Shown here piece by piece: positions 2,698 to 35,856 of a stretch of DNA of 64,000 nt. The notes beneath the pieces were generated by a model. It saw only the letters and a program-made list of their open reading frames with translations, was not told the DNA's origin and searched no databases. A program made the translations under genes and the position numbers. This DNA comes from a virus, in the IMG/VR virus record IMGVR_UViG_3300037337_000032, positions 1 through 64,000 of that record, one strand, 5' to 3'. Within the stretch, counting starts at the first letter, position 1, and each line of letters starts with the position of its first letter.

Positions 2698-2900
2698 TGA
2701 AATACTTCCATAAAATTAGGTAATGCAAATGAATTGAATATCTCTTCAGTCTCTGCAAAGGTAATCTGATTTGCAACACATAGCAAGTTAAACACTCTAT
2801 TGTCCCCGAGTACACTAAAGAAATCACCCTCTGTTAGCTTATTAAGTTTAACGGGTATAGCGATTATTTCCCAATCTTGAATGTCATGTTCGTTAATCAT
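2682..2900 (-). CDS. Hypothetical phage protein, 72 aa
   Basis: ATG directly follows the ThyX stop region (the genes share base 2900). The central part VKLNKLTEGDFFSVLGDNRVFN resembles a short phage family in which a compact beta domain follows an acidic N-terminus. No catalytic motif. It overlaps the HU-like gene by 16 nt. Confidence 0.6.
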   Translation of the reverse strand: MINEHDIQDWEIIAIPVKLNKLTEGDFFSVLGDNRVFNLLCVANQITFAETEEIFNSFALPNFMEVFQCKLK

Positions 2901-4609
2901 TATAATTCCTCCAGATTGAATACCTTACTGATAGCTTGTGCAACTGCCAATGCAATTTCACGGTGCTCTGTTTGTGTGCTTTCATCTTTACGCACTTCAA
3001 TATAATGGATAAAACTACGAATAGTCCCCTGCATGTATAAACGAGACATTGTATTACCTTCTGGTAGTACTGCACGAGCTTGTTCTTTAGCAATACCGTG
3101 TTCAATTGCCCATTTATAAGCTTCACTAGAAGCTTCAATTACGCGCTTTTGTTGTACTTCCCATTGAAATGCAAGCTTACGGTGGTCATTGTTTTGCATA
3201 TCCAGTGGAATGGAATTCTGACGGTTCTTTGTATCTTGCAGTCGAGCATCACGTAATACAAATGCTAAATCTTTTACAGGATCCGCGTAACGCTGACTAT
3301 TATGGGTAAGAATACCGTTTCCAATGTAATTATGACTCACATGGTCAACTTCCATATCATATGTCATTTGTTCCCCCATATACTTTATAGAGACAACTTC
3401 ACTCCACTCTACAGTAAGTGTATTTCCCTTAGATTTCTCCCTCCAAATTTTACAGTCTCCGTTTAAACCGTGGTGTTCTTTGTGGCACTTCTTGCAAAGA
3501 ACTTCAATGTTGTCCTTATCATAAGCAAACTCAGGATATTCAGCTACAGTTTTAACGTGATGCATTTCCAACTTCTCATTAGAAGAACACCGCTTACATT
3601 TGTAATCAACTGATTGCAAAAACTCACTCCGCAAAGAGGTACACCAATCTGCAATTTTCTGTCTCTCGCTGCGATCTACCCCACCTCTCCATAAATTAGA
3701 TTCGCTACCTTTTCTTGCAGACTTGCGCATTTTTTCAATTGTTTCCATAGAGTGTTTAGGAAGATTGTATCCATAGGCTCCTTTGTTCCAAGCAATAGTA
3801 TATGAAGCTACCTCTTGTTTTGTAAACTGAAGTTTATGAACTTTCAACCATTTGCGAATAGTATGCGTACTAACTTCAGCAGCGTGAGCAATATAATTCA
3901 AGCCCTCACCTGACGCAATAGCTTCCTCTTTTGTTGCTGAAAGCCAAGCTTTGTCTTGATGTACAGCAATACCGTTACAAGCTAAGAAAGATTTTTTACG
4001 CATTGCTGCTGTGTCATTTGACATAAATAATCCTACAGCTTCTTCCATAGTTTGAAAACCATCTTGAGTAAAGAACTTGTGTTCTTTAGTCGCGGTAATA
4101 GACTTACCATTTGCCAACGTAAGTTTAAACACAGGTTTGATACCTGTACAAAATACTTCCTTAATGCCTACAGCAGTAAACACTTTACTTTTTTCATCAA
4201 ATACACGAACATATTTTGGCAAGCTACCTTTTAACTGGAGATTGTATAAGTGCTCAATACTGCGTTTATAGGCAGATCGTTTACTATTTTTAACTCCACT
4301 TGGTAGTTCAAGTGTAATTAAAGTATCACCTGCTACACAAAACTCCTGAAATGCAAAGCTACGGTGACGCAAGATCTGTCTTGCAATATCACGGGTAGTT
4401 TCAATCTCTACCGTAGCACTTGCCATTTCAAACGGAGAAAAATGCTTATGCTTTAGTAGATACTTCAAAAGCTTATCTGCAGTGTCATTATTAAATTGAT
4501 TACTCGGATTAGATACCCTAGCACAAAAAGCAATAAGATCTTTTGCTGAACTAAAGCTTTCTTTGAATTCTTCTGCTGCTTGCGTGTAACCTACTAATTT
4601 TACTTTCAA
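2900..4609 (-). CDS. thyX: Flavin-dependent thymidylate synthase ThyX interrupted by an intein
   Basis: 569-aa precursor. Residues 1-90 and 438-569 are ThyX. The family signature RHRxxSxQExSxRY is split as RHRSFAFQEF (81-90) and SQRY (438-441), with the intein C91-N437 between them. The joined product of 222 aa has the normal ThyX length. ThyX makes dTMP from dUMP using FAD, NADPH and methylene-tetrahydrofolate. C-terminal ThyX features include EQARAVLPEGNTM and SFIHYIEVR. The start overlaps the stop of the metallophosphoesterase gene (ATGA). With RNR and the dCMP deaminase elsewhere in the window it supports a phage-run dTTP supply. Splicing is required for activity because the intein breaks the catalytic motif. 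Confidence 0.95.
   Translation of the reverse strand: MKVKLVGYTQAAEEFKESFSSAKDLIAFCARVSNPSNQFNNDTADKLLKYLLKHKHFSPFEMASATVEIETTRDIARQILRHRSFAFQEFCVAGDTLITLELPSGVKNSKRSAYKRSIEHLYNLQLKGSLPKYVRVFDEKSKVFTAVGIKEVFCTGIKPVFKLTLANGKSITATKEHKFFTQDGFQTMEEAVGLFMSNDTAAMRKKSFLACNGIAVHQDKAWLSATKEEAIASGEGLNYIAHAAEVSTHTIRKWLKVHKLQFTKQEVASYTIAWNKGAYGYNLPKHSMETIEKMRKSARKGSESNLWRGGVDRSERQKIADWCTSLRSEFLQSVDYKCKRCSSNEKLEMHHVKTVAEYPEFAYDKDNIEVLCKKCHKEHHGLNGDCKIWREKSKGNTLTVEWSEVVSIKYMGEQMTYDMEVDHVSHNYIGNGILTHNSQRYADPVKDLAFVLRDARLQDTKNRQNSIPLDMQNNDHRKLAFQWEVQQKRVIEASSEAYKWAIEHGIAKEQARAVLPEGNTMSRLYMQGTIRSFIHYIEVRKDESTQTEHREIALAVAQAISKVFNLEEL
3299..4339 (-). mobile_element. Intein with HNH homing endonuclease inside thyX
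   Basis: 347 residues. Block A is CVAGDTLITL with Cys1. Block B is ANGKSITATKEHKFF with the usual TxxH. Block F is MTYDMEVDHVSHNYIG and block G is GNGILTHN, followed by Ser+1. These are canonical class 1 splicing residues. The insert carries an HNH nuclease: CKRC at 338-341, EMHHV at 348-352 and a second CKKC at 372-375 followed by HKEHH. A helix-turn-helix-like stretch (about 235-260) and a G/S/K-rich NUMOD-like segment (about 280-305) precede it and may bind DNA. Both parts look intact, so it should splice and may still home. Confidence 0.93.
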
Positions 4610-5181
4610 GATAAATCCTTTCGATGTTGATCTGCTAAATATATTTCTTCATTCTGCATAAACTTACTAATCTCAACCTCATCAATGAATTTGTGTTTAT
4701 CGTATAGAATATATGCTGAATCTAAACCAACGTCAAGCATTTTACCACGAGAATCTTTAAAATTACCATGACAATGCCCATGTAGATGCCATGCACCATG
4801 ACTTTGACGATGCCAACTTGCAATAGGAAAGTGAAATAGTACAACGGGTATTTCACCTATTGTAATTTCTTTATAATCATACCATGCAGCAATTAGTTTA
4901 TCTTTTACAAGTTGATCTAGGTGTTCACGACGATCGTGATTCCCTTTAATAAATATCTTTTGGCCTTTCAGCTTAGATACAGCTTCCGCTAGATCTTGAT
5001 AGTTTTTATAGAATGATAAATCTCCAAGGTGATATACAATATCTCCTGAAGATACTTCTGTATTCCATAAGTTAATAATCCACCGATCGTGATTTTCTTG
5101 TGATAAACAATCAATGCCTCTATTAGTAAACTTAACAATATTTTTATGACCTAAATGTAAATCACTTGTAAAGATCTTCAT
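4606..5181 (-). CDS. Calcineurin-like metallophosphoesterase
   Basis: 191 aa with all metal-binding motifs of the family: SDLHLGH (D7, H9), LGDLSF (G53-D54), KGNHDR (N81-H82-D83), LFHFP (H117) and HLHGHCHG (H134, H136). Such enzymes hydrolyse phosphomonoesters or diesters in nucleotides, RNA ends or proteins. It overlaps thyX by 4 nt and lies directly downstream of a P-loop kinase. Kinase, binuclear metallophosphatase and RNA ligase (at 9.5 kb) are the three activities of bacterial Pnkp RNA repair enzymes, so a role in healing RNA ends is plausible but unproven. Confidence 0.88.
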   Translation of the reverse strand: MKIFTSDLHLGHKNIVKFTNRGIDCLSQENHDRWIINLWNTEVSSGDIVYHLGDLSFYKNYQDLAEAVSKLKGQKIFIKGNHDRREHLDQLVKDKLIAAWYDYKEITIGEIPVVLFHFPIASWHRQSHGAWHLHGHCHGNFKDSRGKMLDVGLDSAYILYDKHKFIDEVEISKFMQNEEIYLADQHRKDLS

Positions 5182-5192
5182 TTAATAGCCCT

Positions 5193-5618
5193 TTAAAGTT
5201 GGATACAAAACTTACTTTTCATCTTCTGTATTGTATCATCAGGGTAACCGTGGATATTTTTATTACCGTGATAATTTTCTACAACAAGGGATACAAAGTT
5301 TGCACCGGCCATCATAGCAATATCCATGTATGTTTGTACTTCCCAGTCTGTAACGCTAGTATTTGATACAGAGACATTGAAGCCCTGCTCTAAAAAGTGC
5401 AAAGCTGTACTCCTGCAATATGTATGTGCTTCTTTCAGTTTGCTAGCATCAAAATTATAGTCAAAACAATTAGTAACTGCATTATATTTATAAAAATAAT
5501 CATCAGCTTCTACATCAAGGGTAGTTACAGCGCATTTATTTAAAATAGCTGCAACTGTACTTTTTCCAGATCCAGGTAAACCACGAATTAGAAATAGTGT
5601 AGGTTTTTCTTTATTCAT
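5193..5618 (-). CDS. P-loop kinase, AAA_33 / N4BP2-like polynucleotide kinase family
   Basis: 141 aa from the ATG at 5616-5618, which has GGAG 6 nt upstream; the longer TTG-started reading is less likely. The Walker A is GLPGSGKST at residues 13-21. The lid and substrate region shows EADDYF (37-42), YNFDASKLKEAH and a conserved CR, the pattern of the N4BP2-like / AAA_33 branch of nucleotide and polynucleotide kinases. Substrate cannot be read from sequence; 5'-OH RNA or DNA ends or nucleotides are possible. Overlaps the 71-aa gene upstream and is 11 nt from the metallophosphoesterase. Confidence 0.8.
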   Translation of the reverse strand: MNKEKPTLFLIRGLPGSGKSTVAAILNKCAVTTLDVEADDYFYKYNAVTNCFDYNFDASKLKEAHTYCRSTALHFLEQGFNVSVSNTSVTDWEVQTYMDIAMMAGANFVSLVVENYHGNKNIHGYPDDTIQKMKSKFCIQL

Positions 5619-5826
5619 TAAATTCTCCAAAATGTTTTTTTACTACTGCTACACCTTCATCAACATCAGTGTAGTGCAGCATAATGTTGGTACATTCCTG
5701 CACAATCAACTGGGCAAACTCTTCCATGTATTTGACACCACTTGGCAATCCATTCTGCTCAGGTTTGTATCCAGTCTTCTCTGTGCGACATACCTGCTGG
5801 GCCAGTTGTAGAATTCGTTCGTTCAT
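5611..5826 (-). CDS. Conserved small phage protein, 71 aa
   Basis: The pattern MNERILQLAQQV ... FAQLIVQEC ... VKKHFGEFNE is that of a very common small phage protein of unknown function: N-terminal helix, central FAxLIVxEC, C-terminal HFG. The start has AAGGAGC upstream and the stop overlaps the kinase start. Confidence 0.7.
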   Translation of the reverse strand: MNERILQLAQQVCRTEKTGYKPEQNGLPSGVKYMEEFAQLIVQECTNIMLHYTDVDEGVAVVKKHFGEFNE

Positions 5827-5852
5827 TTTATGCTCCTTGGTACTAAGTGTTA

Positions 5853-5881
5853 ATTATAGTAGATTTTGGATCAATTGTCAT
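5853..5881 (-). promoter_or_regulatory. Predicted sigma70-like promoter
   Basis: Minus strand -35 ATGACA (5876-5881), 17-nt spacer, -10 TATAAT (5853-5858). It lies just past the upstream gene and 27 nt before the 71-aa gene, so it could restart transcription of the kinase/thyX half of the operon. Confidence 0.5.
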
Positions 5882-6174
5882 CCAGCAATAATTTTAATTT
5901 TGTGCCCCAGCAGCACTTCAATTTCGGCAACTGTCAACTGTTTAACTGGCTTGATTACTTCAGCTTCGGTAACTTGATTGCCATTCAAGAACCACGACTT
6001 GTCGCCACTAATACACTCAATAGCCGGTCCATCTTCACGATGCAGTAGTCCATTTAAGTACCATACCTTGTCGCCATCAGTACACTCAACTGCTGGTCCA
6101 TGTGTACGATGCAGTTGGCCATTTAAGTACCACTCGGTTTTGTCTGTGCTAACTTGTACGGTGTATTCGATCAT
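5878..6174 (-). CDS. Phage protein with WYLNG-type repeats
   Basis: 98 aa. Two near-perfect repeats (EWYLNGQLHRTHGPAVE, VWYLNGLLHREDGPAIE) and a partial third (SWFLNG), each about 21 residues, resemble MORN-like beta-hairpin repeats found in phage and bacterial proteins of unknown function. A short helical tail (LTVAEIEVLLGH) follows. AAAGGA ribosome site. The repeat number may vary between relatives; no enzymatic residue is visible. Confidence 0.7.
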   Translation of the reverse strand: MIEYTVQVSTDKTEWYLNGQLHRTHGPAVECTDGDKVWYLNGLLHREDGPAIECISGDKSWFLNGNQVTEAEVIKPVKQLTVAEIEVLLGHKIKIIAG

Positions 6175-25362: not shown

Positions 25363-25394
25363 TAAATGTAAAATACAATGCAATAAAATGCAAT

Positions 25395-25442
25395 ATAGCG
25401 ACATCTAAGCAATTAAAAGTACTATAGCGTAATCTGCAGACG
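25395..25442. repeat. Degenerate about 29-bp tandem repeat, copy 1
   Basis: Units begin ATAGCGACATCTAAGC (25395) and ATAGCGTAATCTGCAG (25424), 29 bp apart. The same unit is tandem at 44282-44366. Confidence 0.6.
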
Positions 25443-25449
25443 TAAAAAT

Positions 25450-25486
25450 ACCCGGAGTCCTGTGAAGGATATCCGGGTTTCTTTTA
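25450..25486. terminator. Bidirectional terminator between nrdA and the lysis genes
   Basis: ACCCGGA (25450-25456) pairs with TCCGGGT (25472-25478). An inner TCCT-GTGA-AGGA helix has a GNRA loop. TTTCTTTT follows on the plus strand and TATTTTTA on the minus strand, so it can stop transcription from both converging operons. Confidence 0.85.
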
Positions 25487-25930
25487 TTTGTGTAGTCCTA
25501 AAATATATCTAGTTTTACCGTCTGTATTTTTAGCTGTCAGTACTTGGTTACGATTAGCACCTGCATTAAAACTGATATGAGTCCATGTATTAAATTCGTT
25601 TATTGCTTGATCAAATTCAATACCTAAAGTAATCAACTGCTGTACTACATCGTAAGGTTCTACACCTTGCACTACAATGTCTACTGCTTTACCTTGACTA
25701 TGCTGGCTTGTTTTAACGCCTCCTACAGCTTTATTTACAGCTGGGCTACGGTAGCCGCTTGTAACTCTTAAGGAGAGGCCTAGAGCTGTTCTAAGCGGTT
25801 GTAGGATGTTTGTTACCAACTGCTGTAGATTTTGCACTACTTCTTCAGTTGGTTCATTAGAAATACCCAATTTAACAGCAGATGCAGATTGTGTAAATTC
25901 TCCTAGAGAGAAGTTCTGAGATAGTTGCAT
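25484..25930 (-). CDS. Endolysin, M15 family peptidase
   Basis: 148 aa. Peptidase M15A pattern: FSLGEFTQSASA at the N-terminus, VTSGYRSPAVNKAVGG, SQHSQGKAVDI (zinc His and Asp) and TWTHISF (third zinc ligand). It cleaves peptide cross-links of peptidoglycan at the end of infection. No signal peptide, so it needs the holin encoded just upstream. Last gene of the late operon. Confidence 0.9.
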   Translation of the reverse strand: MQLSQNFSLGEFTQSASAVKLGISNEPTEEVVQNLQQLVTNILQPLRTALGLSLRVTSGYRSPAVNKAVGGVKTSQHSQGKAVDIVVQGVEPYDVVQQLITLGIEFDQAINEFNTWTHISFNAGANRNQVLTAKNTDGKTRYILGLHK

Positions 25931-25940
25931 ATTAAATCCT

Positions 25941-26432
25941 TTATTTAGTTAGCTTACTAATAGTATCATCTTTATTCTGAGAGCTTCTAGAAGAGCCTCT
26001 GTGAAAGTTAATGATAGTACCAGTTAAAGTCCAGAGCGAACCTAATGCCATATAAACTAGCTCTTTATTCTCTGCAGGAACTCCTTGAAAGAAAGCTAAC
26101 CAAGACACAAGTACAGCAGCACCTACTACTATAAAATCTAAAATATAAGCTGAATTCTTAGATAATAAAGATGCACTAACTGCCTCTTGAATACGAGCAT
26201 TCATGTTACGAGCATCTGCAGTATTTTTAAGATTCAATTCTTCTTGAAATTCTTCGTGCTTTAATACTGCTAGTTTTAATTCTGCAATCTTTTCTGCAGA
26301 CATATCAGGTTCAAGTTTAATACCTGTTTTCTCTTCTACGTAATCTAAACCTTTGTCTACTACAGCTTGGGCTACTTTATGCAGATTATTAGATAGAAGA
26401 GAACTGATTACACCCGCTAAGATTGGTAACAT
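25941..26432 (-). CDS. Holin of the 3-TM / DUF-type family
   Basis: 163 aa. N-terminal amphipathic/hydrophobic helix, helical middle, then two strong membrane helices (AYILDFIVVGAAVLVSWLAF and LVYMALGSLWTLTGTIINFH). The WTLTGTIINFHRGSS block is typical of the phage family annotated as 3-TM holin. It should form membrane lesions that release the endolysin. Placed between a second membrane protein and the endolysin. Confidence 0.8.
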   Translation of the reverse strand: MLPILAGVISSLLSNNLHKVAQAVVDKGLDYVEEKTGIKLEPDMSAEKIAELKLAVLKHEEFQEELNLKNTADARNMNARIQEAVSASLLSKNSAYILDFIVVGAAVLVSWLAFFQGVPAENKELVYMALGSLWTLTGTIINFHRGSSRSSQNKDDTISKLTK

Positions 26433-26443
26433 ATATTATATCC

Positions 26444-26671
26444 TTACATGCCTATGATTATTTTAAGTACATTAGTTATACCCATAGACTGAGATAGAAC
26501 TACAAATACAGCACCCATTGCTAAATATTTAATCTGATTAAGTGTCTTCTCAATGCTGCTTAAAGCCCTACGTAGATCTGTAGAAATATCTTGAAGCTTT
26601 TTTAACTCCTGTGCATGATCATCTACTTTTATTTCGAGCTTTATAACTCGGTGTTCAATTTGTTCTGACAT
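26444..26671 (-). CDS. Small coiled-coil and C-terminal TM protein, XhlA-like
   Basis: 75 aa. A coiled-coil segment (EHRVIKLEIKVDDHAQELKK...) is followed by one C-terminal membrane helix (IKYLAMGAVFVVLSQSMGIT). This matches XhlA/haemolysin-like phage lysis accessory proteins, which work with a holin. First gene of the lysis cassette, with its own promoter upstream. Confidence 0.7.
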   Translation of the reverse strand: MSEQIEHRVIKLEIKVDDHAQELKKLQDISTDLRRALSSIEKTLNQIKYLAMGAVFVVLSQSMGITNVLKIIIGM

Positions 26672-26730
26672 AGTGGTTAGTATCCTTAGCGGCTGAGATA
26701 GGAAGAAGTTATAATCTGTAATAAAAAATA

Positions 26731-26770
26731 AACCTGAGATAGTTACTATTTTATAAGTAGTATCTCAGGT
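26731..26770 (-). terminator. Terminator-like hairpin at the start of the lysis transcript
   Basis: On the minus strand ACCTGAGATA pairs with TATCTCAGGT (10 bp, 26761-26770 with 26732-26741), followed by TTATTTTTTATT. It begins about 5 nt after the expected start of the promoter at 26782-26810, so it can stop read-through from the Bug gene and may attenuate lysis transcription. Confidence 0.7.
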
Positions 26771-26781
26771 AAAGTTGAACT

Positions 26782-26810
26782 ATTATAGCATAACTATTCT
26801 AGTAAATCAA
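26782..26810 (-). promoter_or_regulatory. Promoter of the lysis cassette
   Basis: Minus strand -35 TTGATT (26805-26810), 17-nt spacer, extended -10 TGC-TATAAT (26782-26787). Confidence 0.8.
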
Positions 26811-26871
26811 GGTTTAAGCTGACATTGAGTCACTTTTAACACGAGATGTAGAATAACTATTTATCATTACT

Positions 26872-27801
26872 TTATTCTCTAGATAAAATATCCTCTATTA
26901 CTGCAAGCTGGCGTATCTGTACATCTCTTATCTTTATGCCACTTTCTATATACAGATTTTGTAATATACCACTTATTGCAGAACCTTTAATGGTTTCAGT
27001 CATAAGTACTTTTCTAAGCCCCTCAGATAGATCTGATGTACACTGCTTATCTGTATTCGTATGCACAAACAAAGCAGACCAACCGAGGTCTTCAATTTCT
27101 GCGTAACCCTGTTCCCTAAGTGTCGCTATGTTTTTTTTACCAACCAAGCTATGCTTAGGTGCTGCAATGATTCGGAGACTCCCACTATTAATTAGCCCAC
27201 TTATTAAGGGGTTATCTGGGGCTGCCACTATGTAGTCTAGGCGTCCAGCAACGAGGTCAATGACTACTTGCCCAATACTTTTGTATTTAACTACTTCTGT
27301 TTTTGTAGCTAAACTTTTATCCAGCAGCTTAATAGTAAGGTAGTGACTCTCTGTAGCCCCTCCACCAAAAAGCCCTTGCTTTGTTATGCCTGCATCTACC
27401 AGGTCCTTAGCGGTGAAGATATCTGACTTTGTGCTTACAAGTACTGCTAACGGTACTTGTATTAGTCCGTGGACAGGCGTTAAACCGCTAATCGGGTCTA
27501 ATTGAGAACTAGCATGTGTAGCTTTAAGGTAACCCAGAGTAGCACCAGCAACTAGTGCTGTGCTGCAGTTAGCTGGTAAATTTGCAAACTTGTTTAGACC
27601 TATTACGCCGCTTGCACCGGGTACGTTTACCACTACTACAGGTCTTCCCAACTCCTTCCCAAGCAGGGGTGCTAAGTATCTTAGGGCTACGTCAGTAGAA
27701 CTTCCGACTCCAGATAGCGTCATTAGTGTTAGTGGCGAAGCTAGTAAACTTGCCGAACTAAATAATAGTAAAAAAACTAAAAAGTATTTTTTATAATTCA
27801 A
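26872..27801 (-). CDS. Bug/TctC-family periplasmic solute-binding protein
   Basis: 309 aa from TTG 27801, chosen because GGAGG lies 6 nt upstream and it gives a clean signal peptide (NYKKYFLVFLLLFSSASLLA, then cleavage). The mature part follows the Bug (TctC) tripartite tricarboxylate receptor pattern: GSSTDVALRYLAPLLGKELG, RPVVVVNVPGASGVIGLNKF, KYKSIGQVVIDLVAGRLDYI and a late LRIIAAPK / EQGY block. These proteins bind small carboxylates or similar ligands in the periplasm. No transporter genes are nearby. Such a gene is unusual in a phage and was probably taken from a host; it follows the ATP-grasp gene by 1 nt. Confidence 0.85.
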   Translation of the reverse strand: MNYKKYFLVFLLLFSSASLLASPLTLMTLSGVGSSTDVALRYLAPLLGKELGRPVVVVNVPGASGVIGLNKFANLPANCSTALVAGATLGYLKATHASSQLDPISGLTPVHGLIQVPLAVLVSTKSDIFTAKDLVDAGITKQGLFGGGATESHYLTIKLLDKSLATKTEVVKYKSIGQVVIDLVAGRLDYIVAAPDNPLISGLINSGSLRIIAAPKHSLVGKKNIATLREQGYAEIEDLGWSALFVHTNTDKQCTSDLSEGLRKVLMTETIKGSAISGILQNLYIESGIKIRDVQIRQLAVIEDILSRE

Positions 27802-27802
27802 G

Positions 27803-29161
27803 TTAGCCTCCATTTTCAATATAATTAAATCTAGCCTGCACTTCTGTTTTTGTTAAGCCTATACCAGCAACCTGTACAACATCCCCTGTACTGTTAAACC
27901 TACGTGGAAACAACTGTGCAGCATACAGGTCTACCACATATATTGCGGGTATAGGTGTAGCATGGTAGCCCCTAGCCTCATAGTATGTTTGCTGTTTCTT
28001 TGGTTTATGTATGTCCATCATATGCGCTATAGCCTGATCAAGAACAGGGTGTACTGCAGCAAAAAAACGAACATGGGAATTGGCTGCACCTCGTGCGTTC
28101 CAATCTAGCAACGTCCACTTATTGTCGTACCACACAAACTGTACACTATGTAGTCCGTTTCTTAGCCCATACTTAGTACACACACCTTGCAGTAGAGTAG
28201 CTAGTTCAGATATATCGCCTGTGTATGGTGTAACACGTCCGAACTGGTTGACAGATGGCAACCTGTGCTCGTCAACAGACCATATAAGAGCCTCACTTTC
28301 ACAATTAACTGCAATGTGAATATGGAGGCTCTTTATAGGGTAGCTTAAAGCTGGCTGGATAACATACTCACCATACAGCGGGTTAGGCTTTGCTTGTTCC
28401 TCCCAGAAAGATGAGTGCATGGAATCAACAAAAGCCGAAGGGGACTCCCAAGTACTATAAGCAATTCCGTTATCTTCCTTAGAATACGTTCGTCTACGCT
28501 TAACGAATATAGGTGTGTTTGGCAACCCTAATACGTCTTCCTTTTTTAGTGGAATAGTTACGGGCAGTGAGTCAAACCCTAGGGACTTCATATCTATTCT
28601 ATCTGTTAGACTTAGTAAGACACCTGCAGTAAACGGTACGCTAACACCTGTGCTAGGGTAGGCAAGCATTTCGTACACATCTGTGTCTGATAAGAGTAAA
28701 ACGTAACCAGCCAAGCTAATATCTGTAGTTATGTCAATACCGAGGTTATGCTGCAACCCATCTAGCGTATTTTTATTTAGTAATTGCATTGTATTTTGAG
28801 GTACATACAGCGTTTTTCGATTTGTATCGCTGGCAACGTAGGCACTGGGGGAATCAAATAGTGTTGATTTGATGTACGGCACCCAAAGACAGGTTGCTTC
28901 ATCTAAGTACAGCCTTGGGTTTTTATTTGGCAAATAGAAAGCATCCCGTTCTGCATCATAAATATAACCTACCCTCGCAAAGTTTTTACGTATAGCTGAA
29001 CCACCATCTGGTTTTCCGTCTGCACTATAATGCACTCCACCTCGGGTATCAATTGAGGTCTGAACCCAAGTATCGGTCTTTGGCATTTCGTCGATGAACA
29101 ACTGTTCAGCCAGAATTACTTCGGTTACAGACCCCAATTCTACTTTTGCGTAATATGGCAT
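27803..29161 (-). CDS. Virion-like N-terminal domain fused to an ATP-grasp-like domain
   Basis: 452 aa. Residues 1-110 match a common phage tail-region domain (MPYYAKVELGSVTEVILAEQ ... WVQTS ... RKNFARVGYIYDAERDAF ... CLWVP). From about 115 the sequence changes to an ATP-grasp-like pattern: TPIFVKRRRTYSK (candidate ATP-binding Lys), YGEYVIQPALS, SLHIHIAVNCESEALIWSV and VQFVWYDNKWTLLDWNARG, where the last acidic/Asn pair would bind Mg-ATP. ATP-grasp enzymes join a carboxylate to an amine or thiol. The fusion is unusual. It ends 1 nt before the Bug gene and that gene's ribosome site overlaps its last codons. Confidence 0.65.
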   Translation of the reverse strand: MPYYAKVELGSVTEVILAEQLFIDEMPKTDTWVQTSIDTRGGVHYSADGKPDGGSAIRKNFARVGYIYDAERDAFYLPNKNPRLYLDEATCLWVPYIKSTLFDSPSAYVASDTNRKTLYVPQNTMQLLNKNTLDGLQHNLGIDITTDISLAGYVLLLSDTDVYEMLAYPSTGVSVPFTAGVLLSLTDRIDMKSLGFDSLPVTIPLKKEDVLGLPNTPIFVKRRRTYSKEDNGIAYSTWESPSAFVDSMHSSFWEEQAKPNPLYGEYVIQPALSYPIKSLHIHIAVNCESEALIWSVDEHRLPSVNQFGRVTPYTGDISELATLLQGVCTKYGLRNGLHSVQFVWYDNKWTLLDWNARGAANSHVRFFAAVHPVLDQAIAHMMDIHKPKKQQTYYEARGYHATPIPAIYVVDLYAAQLFPRRFNSTGDVVQVAGIGLTKTEVQARFNYIENGG

Positions 29162-29185
29162 ATTTCTCCTTAAACTGTAAAAAAA

Positions 29186-29497
29186 TTAAGCCACAACTGC
29201 AAATATATCTTTTAGTGCAACTGTAATAACTCTGGGAGTTATAATTGCAACTGGCTTTTGTAGATTTGTAATTGTAAATAAACCGTCGAAAGTGAAACCA
29301 ATACTTGTACTTCCAAGCTCTTCTTTTAGCTCAAATACCCCTGTAATATCGTCTAAAGCCCAAACCATGCACGGTGTAGTTTCTTGTGGTATTTGAATTG
29401 TATTGTATGGAGGTAACCATGTTTCTGTATTTCCATCCCATATACAAATATTTTCAACTACTCCATCTTTAATTATTAAATAAGATTGCTCTGTCAT
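29186..29497 (-). CDS. Tail-associated hypothetical protein, 103 aa
   Basis: Start at ATG 29497 with GAAGGTGG upstream; an in-frame TTG at 29512 would add 5 residues. The N-terminus QSYLIIKDGVVENICIWDGN resembles the opening domain of phage tail fibre assembly or tip proteins. Beta-rich remainder without motif. Confidence 0.6.
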   Translation of the reverse strand: MTEQSYLIIKDGVVENICIWDGNTETWLPPYNTIQIPQETTPCMVWALDDITGVFELKEELGSTSIGFTFDGLFTITNLQKPVAIITPRVITVALKDIFAVVA

Positions 29498-29508
29498 ATT
29501 TACCACCT

Positions 29509-30153
29509 TCAAAATTGGAAAACTACAATACCTTGCCTGCCAGCGCCGCCGCCGCCTGCGGCACCGCCAGCCTCCGGCTGGCCTTGTTTATTAAATCCGC
29601 CTGCTGAACCTCCTCCGCCCCCACCTCCTCCAGACCCATAACCACCCGCACCACCCGTGCCTCCGCTGCTTGCGGCAGATGTCCCAGCGCTAGCGCCCCC
29701 GCCAAAAGCAGCGTAGCCATGACCCCCGCCATAGAAACCGAAACAGCCTGCAGTATTTATCGATCCCCCGGAAGCGCCTCCAGATGCTGCGCTCGCAGTT
29801 GTAATACTCTGTGTCCCCGATGTTATTGTAGACGTACCACCTACCCCACCTACTGTTACGCTAATGGTTCGTCCTGCGGTTAATCCTGTAAGGAAACTAA
29901 CAGCTACTGCGCTACCGTTACCACCTTTACCAGGTAGCCCCATACTATTTCCATAACCGAGGCTGCCGGTAGCACCATTAATGCCTCCACCGACAACGGT
30001 TGCAGTAACGCGTGTCACACCTGCAGGTATTGTAAACGTACCGCTGGAAGTAAACGCTTGCCCACCACCTCCGGCGCTACTGGCTACAGCAGCTGTACTT
30101 TGCGTAGTTGCGTCATTAAATGTAATGCTTGTATTACCTACAGTAATTCCCAT
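29509..30153 (-). CDS. Glycine-rich tail protein, likely receptor-binding tip
   Basis: 214 aa. An N-terminal phage domain (ITVGNTSITFNDATTQSTAA) precedes a FTIPAGVTRVTATVVGGG segment and a long Gly/Ala/Ser-rich region with Gly runs (up to eight Gly) after residue 120, ending IVVFQF. Glycine-rich beta-helical or polyglycine-II tips of this type sit at the end of phage tail fibres and contact host receptors. GC content is raised locally because of Gly codons. Confidence 0.7.
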   Translation of the reverse strand: MGITVGNTSITFNDATTQSTAAVASSAGGGGQAFTSSGTFTIPAGVTRVTATVVGGGINGATGSLGYGNSMGLPGKGGNGSAVAVSFLTGLTAGRTISVTVGGVGGTSTITSGTQSITTASAASGGASGGSINTAGCFGFYGGGHGYAAFGGGASAGTSAASSGGTGGAGGYGSGGGGGGGGSAGGFNKQGQPEAGGAAGGGGAGRQGIVVFQF

Positions 30154-30163
30154 ATTTTTCTCC

Positions 30164-30934
30164 TTATGCGACAGTAAAGCCAGTTGTTTGGTTCATTATA
30201 AATTTAGTAACGCCTGCGTACTTAAACAGCAACTCAGCGCCTGCTTCTTCTACAGTCCAGTTGGATGTTAATACTCTGGTTGCGTTAGTAGCATTGGTTG
30301 CATTGGTTGCATTGGTTGCGTTAGTAGCATTGGTTGCATTGGTTGCAGTAGCTGCATTACCTGAGATACTAATGCCCCAAGTTCCGGTAGCATTAAGGCC
30401 CGTAGTACTAGGTGCTCCTATTGTATTATAACTAATAGTAGCACTAGAGCCACCGTTAAATGCACTACCACTTGCTGCACCTGCTCCTGTATTATTAAAG
30501 GTAGCGCTATTATTTAAGTTTAAGCTGATAGCTGCGCTGCCGTTAAAAGCTACACCGTTGATGTTTCTAGCGGTTGCTAGTACACTAGCAGTAGCTGCGT
30601 TACCAGATATATTACCTGTAATCTTAGCACCAGCCAGTGAAGTAATCCAATCAGGGTTTGCGTAAGAACCTGTAGTAACTACACCATTTGTAACTGTACC
30701 TGCATTACCACTTACACTAATAGCATAAGTTGCTGCGAGGTCGTTCCAAGCACTGCCATTATATTTCTGCCATTTACTTACTGCAGAACTCCATCGAATA
30801 GAGTTAGTAGGTACGTTTGTTGCTGAAGTGACAGCAGGGTCAAGCCCTACTGCCAAATCATCAAAGCGTAAATCTAATTCTGTTACGAAATTAGTGTAAG
30901 TACTAGTAAGTACTGGCTTTGAATGATCTGCCAT
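30164..30934 (-). CDS. Tail fibre protein with NAT repeats
   Basis: 256 aa from ATG 30932-30934 (AAAGGA upstream). N-terminus ADHSKPVLTSTYTNFVTELD is a virion-attachment type; the middle has Asn/Ser/Gly beta repeats (KITGNISGNAATAS, ARNINGVAFNGSAAISL), and about eight consecutive Asn-Ala-Thr units follow near residue 205. C-terminal EEAGAELLFKYAGVTKFIM is a common fibre end. It probably belongs to the distal tail. Confidence 0.75.
   Translation of the reverse strand: MADHSKPVLTSTYTNFVTELDLRFDDLAVGLDPAVTSATNVPTNSIRWSSAVSKWQKYNGSAWNDLAATYAISVSGNAGTVTNGVVTTGSYANPDWITSLAGAKITGNISGNAATASVLATARNINGVAFNGSAAISLNLNNSATFNNTGAGAASGSAFNGGSSATISYNTIGAPSTTGLNATGTWGISISGNAATATNATNATNATNATNATNATNATRVLTSNWTVEEAGAELLFKYAGVTKFIMNQTTGFTVA
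30278..30349. repeat. 9-bp tandem repeat inside the tail fibre gene
   Basis: Units of GCATTGGTT / GCGTTAGTA encode the NAT tripeptide run. Tandem repeats like this can change copy number by slippage. Confidence 0.75.
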
Positions 30935-30936
30935 AT

Positions 30937-33900
30937 TTAATATCCTTTTATAGCCCAAGATGCAGAACCTGATACTCTAGCACCTGTATTATCGAATAGG
31001 TAAAGTTTGAATGATTGCGGATACAATGTACCAGCACCACTTGTATTTGCAGTTGTCATATTTACAACAAAAGTGTTTGATGTAGAAGACAATACTGTAT
31101 AAACAGCAGTAATACCAGTACCACTAGAAAAATACAACTTAACTTTTTGACCTGCAATTAGCTCATGAGCAGTACTTGTTACAGTACAACTATTTGAGAC
31201 AACAGAATAAGTAGTATTTAATATACTATCCTGAAAATCATAAACAGTAGTAATAGGGGTAGTTCCTGATGGTGATAATGTAATGCTCTGTACGTCGATA
31301 AACTCTTTATTAAAGTTAACAATAGTTCCTAGAGTATCTCCAGCTACGCCAGCTACACTTCCTGCATCGTTCTTTAGTTTAGAGTCCGCTCTAACAGAAA
31401 GCTCTGCAATTTCATATAGATCTTTATCTGTCGGTGCAGTTACAGTCAACCTTACCTTAACGTATCTGAAGTTTGTTCCATATACATCGGTAACTCCATT
31501 ATACTCTACGAAGGTAGAGTTGTCAAGAGATAAACTTATTTTAGGTATTACTGTAGGGTTGCCTGCAATAATAGCCCCACGAGAGTTTAATACTACCCTG
31601 CTAGAAGATAAAACTACGCCAAAGTCAAAAGTCTCTTCATAGAATGCACTTCCATTTGTAGGTTGTACATAGATAGGGTAGCCTGCATTGACTTGTGCTT
31701 GTGGGCTTGCCCAGCTTCTTGTAGTAAAGTGCTGTTCAAAAGTCTCTGTAGTATTTACTGGTAGAGCTAAAACATTACCATCAAAAGAAGCAGAAGACTT
31801 AGTACCAGTGAAACTACTAAAGTATTCTCCATTGAAAGTAAAATCAGGTGGTTCATTTACTAGTGTAGTAATAGCAACTGGTGCGCTTTCAATAGCATCA
31901 GTATCTACAGCAGCTAACCAGTAGGTATACTCTGCTCCTACAATCTCTGTAATAGTAGTGAAAGCTCCCTTTTTATCTCCAATAACTGTAGCAGTTTCCC
32001 ACACTGCACCTCTCTTAATTAACACATGGTCAATCGGAAGAGAAGTCCTTTGGGGTAAAGTCCAGAAAAGCATAACTGTATTATCAATTACTTGTGCTCT
32101 TGCATCAGACACAGGATCTGGCGCTGCCTTAGTAACTAACTGAGAAAAACCTGAAGATTTATTCCCATGAATATCTACTGTTTTAATAGTAAATAATCTT
32201 CCACCAACCCAATCCGCTGCAATGGTAATAGTATTACCTTTTACAGTTTTTACACTACCGTTGTAAGTTAACTCATAGTAGGATATATCAAACTCAGAGG
32301 CTGTTACATCGTTCCAATTTAGATTAACTGTAGCACTTGTTAGAGCAGTATCTTCATAGTCAAATGAAAATGATTCGATATTTGAAGGTGTAGGAAGAGA
32401 GTAAGAAACACTTGTAGGATTTAAGCTATAGTTTCCAGCTGAATCAACTGCTTTAACATAGAGTGTAAAGGCAGTATTATACTGTATAAATGCACGGTTA
32501 GCATCTCCATAGAAAAGCCTACTTATATCGTTAGAACCCCAACCACTATCTGAATCTCTGACTTCATATGTATATACATCTAGTTCTGGATTATTATCCC
32601 ATGTTAGAAGTAACTGACCACTTGACTTATCCGAGAATACTTTGAAATTTGTTACATCTGAAGGTGGGTTAGTCTTTCCTACTACTGTATGATTAGAGTA
32701 AGAACTCCAGTTCCCAACAATACCATTACGACCCACATATCGCATTCTAATCTTATAAGTACTGCCCTCTTGAACGTCACCAATAGATGCAGAACCTTTT
32801 TGATACGGAACAAAGATAGATCTAAAGTTTAAGCCTGCAGTAGCTGCTAATAGGTCATATTGTACTTCTACAGATTCTACTACGGCAGGAAGCTGTGATG
32901 CGTTTACATATGCAGCTGCAATTCTATACTGAAATACACCCTTAGATATTCTCTCCATTACTGATTCATCACTTACAAATCCAGTGATCTGTGGAACCTT
33001 ATTACCAAAATTCTCAACTTGTAATCTAGGCGGCAACGTTATCTGAGATTCAAATACAACAGCTGCAGTTAGGTTTAAATACTGAGTGTATATATTATAT
33101 TCAGATGTTACGCCATAATCTACTAAAGTAAGTCTAGCTGAGTTATTTGCAGAAGGTTCGATACCTATTACAATACAGTCTTGAGCCTCTTGTTGTAATT
33201 CTCCAAATAAGAATAGATCCAGTACATCAGCTTCTGTTGTAGTCACTGCAGTAGTTAAATCAACTTCATTATAGTAACCATCTATAGTTTTAGCTACAAG
33301 AGTTCTTACTGTAGAAGCACCTAGTTTACTTCTAAATCGTAGGGTATAATTAACACCCGCTTGCATTGGAAGATCTTCGTCTAGCAGTAGCTTAGTACTT
33401 GATAACCTAGTTTTAATTCTACCGGAACCTAAACCCCACATTGGGACATCGTGCATTACTTTCACACGGTCACCTCTATTACATACTAAGTATTCTATGT
33501 CAGAATTAAGAGTATAAACTTCTGGTCTGAGTTTAATCTGTGCCATATGCCAACGAGCATGATCGACAACTAGGCTGCGTTTAGTTACACCTGGAAGAGT
33601 AATGCTTTCAAATAATGTAGCATTTGTAGCTGTCTTACCTATATCATAAACAATAGTTTCTGATTCTTGGTAATCTCTATCTTCATCGTAGAATGTTACA
33701 CGTAAACCTTCTGGACGTTTAGGCAATACTTTTGTAGCTTCAAAACCCCAAGAGTTATGTGGTGTAAAATGCTGAATTACATTTGGTTTAACTTCGTCTA
33801 TAACTACTGTCCATTTACCATCAACAAGTGCAGGACTAGCTCTACCAGCAGCACAAATATCTCTGATAACTTCTAGTATACTTCTAGCTTCTCCTAATAT

Positions 33901-35856
33901 ACCGTTGTACTCAAAACCCATGCTTTGGCAGTAATTGTAGAAGTATTGCAACTGCGCTAGATTGATTTGAGTATTTGCGTTAGTAACCTTACGTGGGTTA
34001 GCTGGATGCTCTAGTACGTAGCGCATCAAAGCTGCTGGGTTATTTGTATTACCATCTACCCATGCAGTTCCATTCCAATCTTTACACCAAGTTTGGACTA
34101 CTGCACTAATACCTTGAATGCTTCCATTTAGTTGCTCAGTAGCCTTAATTTTGAAAGCTGTCTTTGCAATCTTAGTTCCAACAGGATCAACTGCAGGCGT
34201 AGTATTACGTAAGAATGTTACATCTTGTAGAACGGAAACAAAGTAGTAACGAATATCTGGATTGTCTTCTACGTTATCCCCAGTCTCTCTTCGTGCTCTA
34301 ACTAGCATCTGTGGATTATTTAAACCTGAGTATGTACGTGTAGTAGTAAATGCATCTTTCTTAGCCGTATCTCCACCTATAGTTAATAACTCAAGTAAAG
34401 TAAAAGTAGTACCTGAATCATTCGAAGACTCTAGTCTAATATTCACTGAAGTAGCTGCAGAGTTACCTGCATTATCTCCTTTAGTGAATATCTTACGTAA
34501 ACCCTGTGGAAAATGCAAAGCTACCGTAACTGAAGTGACAGGCACAATCTCTTCATTTGTGTTAAACTCTGTTCCAGTAGCGGCCTCGAACCAAGGACCA
34601 GGAGCTACTGTTGCTTCTGGGTTGCCATCACATACTAATTCAATCTGTGTATTAATCTGTGTTATGTCGTTTCCATAGATAGAATCAAAGTCCCTCTTAG
34701 TAGTTGCAGAAGGTTCAGTTTTTCTATCAAGTGTAATGTAATTGTAATCTGTAAAGTTAGTTAAAGGTATTTCACCTATTCTTAAAGTAGCAGCATCGAT
34801 AGTTAAAGGGCCATAGCCCCAGACTAATAGCATAGATAAATAACTATCGCGTTCATTTTCGTATGTCAAGAAGTTTACGGAACCTAGTGGAGGTGTTACA
34901 CGTACTTTTCCTAAAACAACAGGGATTGCAGCATAAGGTGTAAGAGGATTAGAACCTCCATTAACCATTAATTGCTTTTCTGCAGAACCAGGGTCATTCC
35001 TATTTTGAACTACAGGTGGCCTGATTGGTGCAATAGCATTTACTAGTGCAGAACCAATCATCATAATACCTGCAGTTACTGCGATATTTAATGCAGTTAA
35101 ACCTAAAGTTACACTCCCACCCATAACACCTGCAGCTGCTGCTGCAGATGTATAACCAGTAAGAGAACCTGCAAGCATTGGAGCATAGAAAGAAATAGCT
35201 AAAACAGCTATTAATCTTACTGCATCTCCTGTAGGAACTGCTCGGTATTCGATTACGTCGTTCTTATTGATAACAGTAGTATGCCAATCCTCTTGTGCAA
35301 TAACTCTACCATTGATCATTACACTGATTCTGCTTTTAAGCTCTGCAGCTACATTATACTGCAAGCTAATATTCTGTATAAGCTCTGTTACAGTAGTACC
35401 TGGAATAACTGCTACTGTGTAGCGTTCAGTTTTTAATGGATGCGGGACTGTGTTTAGAATAGCATTTTTATTCTCAGAATACCTGAAGAAACCTACCGTG
35501 CGTTTATTCCACTTAGTTGAACTTAGTGATTCAATAGCAGTATCTTGCTTTTCTCTTACATGGATAAAGTGCGTAGGGCTAATAACTAAACCTACGTGAG
35601 ACTCTATACCTAGAATTCTAAATAGAACAATATCGCCTACTTGAGGTTCCTCTGCAGGTTCCCATCCTTCTTTATATTGTGCAATTAGCTCTTCGATTCT
35701 TTTGTTATCCTGCACAGCGTAATCTGCAGTAAAACTTGGTAGACTGATGTTCTTTTCTTCTTTGTAGATCAGACGGACTAAACCATAGCAGTCTAACCCT
35801 GAAATATCCCTACCTTTTTCAGCGTAAGGAATACCTACATATTTATCAAAATTCAT
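30937..35856 (-). CDS. Tail tip protein: NlpC/P60 peptidase + gpI-like + gpJ-like fusion
   Basis: 1639 aa. Residues 1-130: NlpC/P60 domain (GLDCYGLVRL with catalytic Cys; EPQVGDIVLF; SHVGLVISP with catalytic His), as in lambda gpK. About 135-300: gpI-like segment (VAVIPGTTVTELIQ, ISVMINGRVIAQEDW, a hydrophobic Ala/Gly/Leu stretch). From about 290: gpJ-like host specificity protein (EKQLMVNGGSNPLTPYAAIP, VLGKVRVTPPLGSVNF, RDSYLSMLLVWGYGPLTID) with at least three fibronectin III-like domains in the C-terminal half (about 1050-1350). Three lambda tail-tip genes appear merged. It initiates tail assembly, digests cell wall at injection and contacts the host. Confidence 0.85.
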   Translation of the reverse strand: MNFDKYVGIPYAEKGRDISGLDCYGLVRLIYKEEKNISLPSFTADYAVQDNKRIEELIAQYKEGWEPAEEPQVGDIVLFRILGIESHVGLVISPTHFIHVREKQDTAIESLSSTKWNKRTVGFFRYSENKNAILNTVPHPLKTERYTVAVIPGTTVTELIQNISLQYNVAAELKSRISVMINGRVIAQEDWHTTVINKNDVIEYRAVPTGDAVRLIAVLAISFYAPMLAGSLTGYTSAAAAAGVMGGSVTLGLTALNIAVTAGIMMIGSALVNAIAPIRPPVVQNRNDPGSAEKQLMVNGGSNPLTPYAAIPVVLGKVRVTPPLGSVNFLTYENERDSYLSMLLVWGYGPLTIDAATLRIGEIPLTNFTDYNYITLDRKTEPSATTKRDFDSIYGNDITQINTQIELVCDGNPEATVAPGPWFEAATGTEFNTNEEIVPVTSVTVALHFPQGLRKIFTKGDNAGNSAATSVNIRLESSNDSGTTFTLLELLTIGGDTAKKDAFTTTRTYSGLNNPQMLVRARRETGDNVEDNPDIRYYFVSVLQDVTFLRNTTPAVDPVGTKIAKTAFKIKATEQLNGSIQGISAVVQTWCKDWNGTAWVDGNTNNPAALMRYVLEHPANPRKVTNANTQINLAQLQYFYNYCQSMGFEYNGILGEARSILEVIRDICAAGRASPALVDGKWTVVIDEVKPNVIQHFTPHNSWGFEATKVLPKRPEGLRVTFYDEDRDYQESETIVYDIGKTATNATLFESITLPGVTKRSLVVDHARWHMAQIKLRPEVYTLNSDIEYLVCNRGDRVKVMHDVPMWGLGSGRIKTRLSSTKLLLDEDLPMQAGVNYTLRFRSKLGASTVRTLVAKTIDGYYNEVDLTTAVTTTEADVLDLFLFGELQQEAQDCIVIGIEPSANNSARLTLVDYGVTSEYNIYTQYLNLTAAVVFESQITLPPRLQVENFGNKVPQITGFVSDESVMERISKGVFQYRIAAAYVNASQLPAVVESVEVQYDLLAATAGLNFRSIFVPYQKGSASIGDVQEGSTYKIRMRYVGRNGIVGNWSSYSNHTVVGKTNPPSDVTNFKVFSDKSSGQLLLTWDNNPELDVYTYEVRDSDSGWGSNDISRLFYGDANRAFIQYNTAFTLYVKAVDSAGNYSLNPTSVSYSLPTPSNIESFSFDYEDTALTSATVNLNWNDVTASEFDISYYELTYNGSVKTVKGNTITIAADWVGGRLFTIKTVDIHGNKSSGFSQLVTKAAPDPVSDARAQVIDNTVMLFWTLPQRTSLPIDHVLIKRGAVWETATVIGDKKGAFTTITEIVGAEYTYWLAAVDTDAIESAPVAITTLVNEPPDFTFNGEYFSSFTGTKSSASFDGNVLALPVNTTETFEQHFTTRSWASPQAQVNAGYPIYVQPTNGSAFYEETFDFGVVLSSSRVVLNSRGAIIAGNPTVIPKISLSLDNSTFVEYNGVTDVYGTNFRYVKVRLTVTAPTDKDLYEIAELSVRADSKLKNDAGSVAGVAGDTLGTIVNFNKEFIDVQSITLSPSGTTPITTVYDFQDSILNTTYSVVSNSCTVTSTAHELIAGQKVKLYFSSGTGITAVYTVLSSTSNTFVVNMTTANTSGAGTLYPQSFKLYLFDNTGARVSGSASWAIKGY

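Follow-up and report, generated by a model that had tools for sequence, protein, structure and literature searches.

The 64,000 nucleotides analysed here (the window; positions 1 to 64,000 of IMG/VR virus record IMGVR_UViG_3300037337_000032) carry, among phage genes, a gene for a Bug/TctC-type solute-binding protein (SBP) of 309 aa, at 26872..27801 on the minus strand. What would a phage do with a nutrient receptor that comes without a permease? The reading we favour, and to which we give about an even chance, is that of a periplasmic scavenger with an altered ligand, loading host TctAB transporters during infection. Nutrient-uptake receptors of phages are known mainly from cyanophage phosphate binding, and the present findings suggest that phages repeatedly borrow the nutrient-catching proteins of their hosts. 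A recurrent class of phage Bug proteins that lack a transporter, are linked to adenylating enzymes, have a changed pocket and find their cellular relatives mostly in Burkholderiales would mean that phages draw on a very large family of host receptors, and ligand screening could then ask directly what they take up.

Gene and predicted protein

The minus-strand ORF at 26872-27801 is intact. Its longest form begins at TTG 27819, and the preferred start is TTG 27801, which has a GGAGG ribosome-binding site (27807..27811, minus strand) five bases ahead of it, within the end of the upstream gene. From TTG 27801 the translation begins MNYKKYFLVFLLLFSSASLLASPLT..., which is signal-like, and inspection recognises a signal peptide in residues 1-21 (MNYKKYFLVFLLLFSSASLLA|S; 27739..27801, minus strand), with a hydropathy maximum of 2.55 and a probable cut after LLA. 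No lipobox or membrane anchor was seen in the protein. Judged by this N-terminus, the product would be exported to the periplasm via a Sec-type signal. Pfam assigns it to TctC (PF03401, E=7.6e-17, 62.2 bits against a curated cut-off of 27), and in a sequence search of the PDB every match was Bug/TctC, with Bug27 at the top (8e-13) and BugD, a MatC entry and TphC among the other solved relatives; PHROGs and NCBIfam held nothing matching it. The nearest relatives found are about 30% identical. The closest by sequence come mostly from Burkholderiales, in line with the link between the Bug family and this group drawn in the first-pass annotation.

Is the protein a complete two-lobed receptor? An AlphaFold2 model built from 44 aligned sequences reached a pLDDT of 89.3 and a pTM of 0.85, with a pLDDT of about 60 in residues 1-21. 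Bug27 (2qpq) matches the model with a Foldseek TM of 0.84 and a VIA Z of 34.2 (rmsd 2.0 over 287 residues), and structural ranks 1-11 are taken by eleven TTT-receptor entries (Bug/TctC/TphC/TBP/MatC; Z 30.6-34.2), the next family following at 17.3. The predicted two-lobed Bug fold spans the whole mature protein. A complete secreted Bug/TctC protein had been proposed from the DNA alone, with structure prediction as a check; ORF, Pfam and fold agree with it, the signal peptide being read by eye and hydropathy, and the model gave the two-lobed shape rather than another.

A variable late slot

The viral record to which the window belongs is 74,497 bases long and encodes a portal protein, a terminase, a DNA polymerase, a ribonucleotide reductase and tail proteins; the virus is a tailed phage, its host probably a Burkholderiales bacterium. 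Elsewhere in the window, a ThyX thymidylate synthase gene (569 aa; 2900-4609, minus strand) is interrupted by an intein carrying a domain of the HNH endonuclease type. The position first given for the TctC gene, between tail genes and lysis genes, holds: upstream lie a tail fibre protein (264 aa) and the central tail protein J (1639 aa; PHROGs phrog_31, central tail fibre J) at 30164..35856, and downstream, at 25484..26671, a 75-aa XhlA/holin-like protein, a 163-aa conserved phage protein and an M15 endolysin, all on the minus strand. A terminator-like hairpin followed by a T-run (26732..26770, minus strand; fold z-score -3.28) lies behind the TctC gene, is common to the related phage L023, and would fit co-transcription of TctC with the tail genes. 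Ahead of the lysis genes there is a promoter-like site, TTGATT-17-TATAAT (26782..26810, minus strand), the count of such sites being not above shuffled expectation.

Comparison with L023 delimits a variable slot from the fibre gene to the lysis genes (26819..29970, minus strand). Outside it the two phages are 95.8% identical at 29971-33332 and 96.9% identical at 25385-26818; inside it, at 4169-5528 of L023, cupin-like (by eye), Asp/Arg-hydroxylase (PF05118) and oxygenase-like (by eye) genes replace a 452-aa gene and TctC, with a weak 69.7% match persisting at 29333-29566. Near-identical flanks around different genes mean that TctC is swapped cargo of a late accessory slot, embedded among phage genes and variable between close relatives, and for practical purposes exclude the host contamination that had been named as a possible flaw. 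A search of 41 related phage records, many of which are short fragments, found the gene in none, and it is likewise missing from Curvibacter phage P26059A, which shares 51% identity with the window phage in the J protein.

The 452-aa gene lies directly upstream of TctC (27803..29161, minus strand). Its N-terminal ~120 aa are found in other phages; for the C-terminal 328 residues (27803-28789, minus strand) no relative was found in the PDB, Pfam, plasmids or 399 genomes. An ATP-grasp identity was considered from motifs seen by eye and set aside, all these searches being empty, and comparison with phage R2K ATP-grasp showed no similarity. A single-sequence model of the product was unusable (pLDDT 29.5).

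The ligand pocket

In characterised relatives the PFxAGGxxD loop, almost ubiquitous but with substitutions described, keeps two water molecules in place against the carboxylate of the ligand (PMC5812351); in TphC, F30 borders the pocket and is positioned by G178 (PMC8556258). Alignments place the equivalent domain-1 loop of the window protein at residues 29-37, LSGVGSSTD (27691..27717, minus strand), in which the first glycine (G33) and D37 are kept, the P, F, A and second G are changed, and the aromatic has become S30. The domain-2 loop, residues 172-177, KYKSIG (27271..27288, minus strand), has S175 in place of the usual glycine. At the aligned positions, aromatic and glycine are both kept in 98 of 128 bacterial relatives against 7 of 27 phage proteins, and both are missing in 3/128 against 16/27, the window protein likewise lacking both; the bacterial rows were selected for matching one common pattern best, a single large clade makes up part of the phage rows, and at about 20% identity alignment columns can be misplaced. 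The changed pocket offers a hint about ligand specificity without proving it: it suggests a ligand different from the dicarboxylates of characterised Bug proteins, and since the pocket-shaping aromatic and glycine are missing, this ligand may be something other than a carboxylate.

Bug proteins in other viral contigs

Is this phage alone in carrying such a receptor? When viral contigs were scanned with an alignment, Bug proteins came up in about 25 other records of 4-374 kb, with five copies in a 337 kb record and three each in records of 374 and 320 kb; scans of viral contigs with single sequences turned up no close relative of either the window TctC or the 452-aa protein. Most of these records present unmistakable phage settings. 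In L063 the Bug gene stands beside a T4-type terminase and structural genes; in L059, L064, L149, L152, L158, L164 and L167 it lies in the replication module, between genes named gp47 and gp46 by sequence resemblance; and in L147 and L160 it follows fibre-like genes. L062 was left out as probable host DNA (GC 0.61). The cellular relatives of phage Bug proteins are mostly Burkholderiales.

Several other genes were seen at these loci. The 337,119-base record (L059 and L065) holds, in addition to its five TctC matches, a DctP-type TRAP receptor with no obvious signal peptide (L065 4100-5047). In the interval between TctC and gp46 of this jumbo phage lie a ring-hydroxylating Rieske dioxygenase alpha subunit (L059 8885-10623; PF00848/PF00355) and a small beta-like gene. 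In L147, the gene separating TctC from the fibre-like gene (4974-5969) encodes a protein that weakly matches the Hint domain.

The first reading of the DNA had also noted that no transporter accompanies the gene. A PF01970 search bears this out: TctA was found in 0 of 25 viral records tested, namely 24 others and the window phage's own 74.5-kb record, itself possibly a fragment, so that a complete tripartite tricarboxylate transporter is not encoded there. That TctC recurs without TctA in the 24 other viral contigs speaks for a function that has been kept.

Phage databases had been named as a place to look. Searches of GenBank phages by tblastn, with the window protein and three jumbo- or large-phage TctC proteins, found no such protein and returned only MT836965 and MT835824. 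MT836965 (L002; MT836965.1, "Bacteriophage sp.") was rejected as a phage relative, since its ORFs read as a piece of bacterial chromosome that includes TctC, TctB- and TctA-like genes. In addition to the viral contigs, BFVD holds five Bug_TTT entries from uncultured Caudovirales phages (A0A6J5T247, A0A6J5L7K0, A0A6J5T9X7, A0A6J5M1T7 and A0A6J5LDG7), and phage Bug proteins thus already exist as database annotations. In the open-access papers searched for Bug proteins in phages, a tctA domain hit was the only find, and no description of the pattern seen here was met with.

Phage TctC rows cluster in both trees that were built, with one clade of 11 supported at 100/100. The quick tree gave the window TctC a weak attachment to a long-branched phage group, and the careful tree left it unplaced, on a long branch meeting another long branch; a one-clade test did not reject its grouping with the main phage clade, but showed merely that the free search was poor. 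Several separate captures of Bug genes by phages are likely.

What might the protein do?

We infer export, ligand class, loading of a host permease and phage benefit as follows. The protein would probably be secreted to the periplasm of the infected cell, where its two lobes would close on a small solute, likely a carboxylate; the solute would be handed to the host TctAB permease, and the added binding specificity or capacity would help phage production. Family, fold, the signal-like N-terminus, the cleanly exchanged slot and the retained G33 and D37 all speak for this reading. Can a receptor work without its transporter? In three sampled genomes that hold relatives, which are not known hosts, the window protein has 55, 104 and 114 matches against 2, 5 and 3 TctA; an SBP can therefore come without a transporter of its own. 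With so many receptors and so few permeases, the receptors of such cells must either share a permease or go without one, and a lone phage receptor could thus work by loading a host permease. Against this role count the missing pocket residues, which leave a carboxylate ligand in question, the position in a tail operon, which implies late synthesis, when extra uptake would help least, and the absence of the gene from the related phage records, fragmentary as many of them are. Among the jobs first proposed, boosted carboxylate uptake is nonetheless the likeliest, and we place scavenging, at its roughly even chance, ahead of the two explanations that follow.

The first of these, which we consider unlikely, is that of a sensor or decoy: by capturing a solute or signal, or by engaging a sensor kinase of the host, the protein would alter host regulation and would feed no transporter. 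Bordetella BctC engages the sensor kinase BctE, and Bug proteins can signal besides transporting (PMC5812351). Pockets often changed among the phage relatives would also suit such a decoy, as would the many bacterial Bug proteins that are orphans, but no phage regulator or sensor was identified beside the TctC gene, and bctDE-like control is described for citrate systems only.

The second, more doubtful still, is that the Bug protein imports a carboxylate which a neighbouring ATP-dependent ligase activates or attaches. An AMP-forming ligase or SGGxDS gene directly adjoins 21 of 28 phage TctC genes (one near-copy removed) and 0 of 80 bacterial relatives, and of the 50 ORFs adjacent to TctC 20 are of these kinds, compared with 3 of the 264 others (Fisher 3e-15). 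Relatedness among the phages inflates these counts, and the models, seeded from genes beside TctC, favour phage versions. The AMP-binding enzymes are confirmed by Pfam; the SGGxDS proteins have no Pfam match, PP-loop being a motif-level name. Some phage TctC loci also hold radical SAM or Rieske enzymes. Against this, the window of the present phage has no AMP-ligase or SGGxDS gene, and its 452-aa neighbour resembles ATP-grasp by eye only, with every search of that domain empty. A broader form of the idea, improbable to the same degree, is that a separate class of Bug receptors has been built up in phages, its pocket remodelled and several copies present per jumbo genome. Such a receptor and an ATP-dependent ligase of the phage would work as a pair, taking hold of a compound from outside the cell and joining it to a molecule of phage or host.

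Accessory genes in the neighbourhood of tail and lysis genes often have roles on the surface of the cell. From the late position the first-pass annotation had derived a part in virion release, superinfection exclusion or ligand binding on the tail. This step finds no support: a Sec-type signal would direct the protein into the periplasm and hence away from where virions are assembled, and lateness is no general property, as homologues in other phages sit beside gp46 and gp47. The export signal and the replication-module copies argue against a part in the virion. That the secreted protein excludes superinfecting phages or masks a receptor would suit both the neighbourhood and the N-terminus that points to export, and is very unlikely for a protein without membrane anchor or lipobox, with its binding fold predicted to be intact and with homologues among replication genes. 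Least likely of all is a host gene not yet lost and of no benefit to the phage: it is present in one phage of its group, in a slot whose contents turn over, but its frame and pocket-loop residues are intact, it has its own ribosome-binding site, its distance from the nearest relatives makes it no recent copy of anything sampled, and its family recurs in many phages.

Comparison with known systems

The scavenger reading can be set beside several known proteins. Bug27 of Bordetella pertussis (PDB 2qpq) shares the two-lobed fold over the whole length, the orphan type of SBP gene and, by prediction for the window protein, export; it is 21% identical to the window protein, which differs in being phage-borne and in having serines for the aromatic docking residue and the domain-2 glycine. 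TphC and other ligand-bound TTT receptors (AdpC, MatC, BugD) have the same fold, with Z of about 31, and the window protein keeps G33 and D37 of the PFxAGGxxD loop; the F30/G178 pair of TphC is S/S in the window protein, with its LSGVGSSTD loop, and a differing ligand specificity would therefore be expected. The Bug_TTT proteins of uncultured Caudovirales in BFVD have the same Bug fold (Foldseek E from 1.3e-19) and are assigned to phages; they are 14-20% identical to the window protein and exist as annotations, with no paper found discussing them. Viral DNA of another kind, a SUP05 viral contig, likewise holds a tripartite tricarboxylate transporter component, a tctA domain (PMC4164917); this is the membrane subunit and not the SBP, known from a domain hit, whereas the window phage has the receptor without TctA. 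For the role proposed here there is a precedent in cyanophage PstS (PMC6359870): like the window protein as read here, it is a phage-borne periplasmic receptor meant for the transporter of the host, from which it differs in SBP family, in its ABC transporter and in its phosphate ligand.
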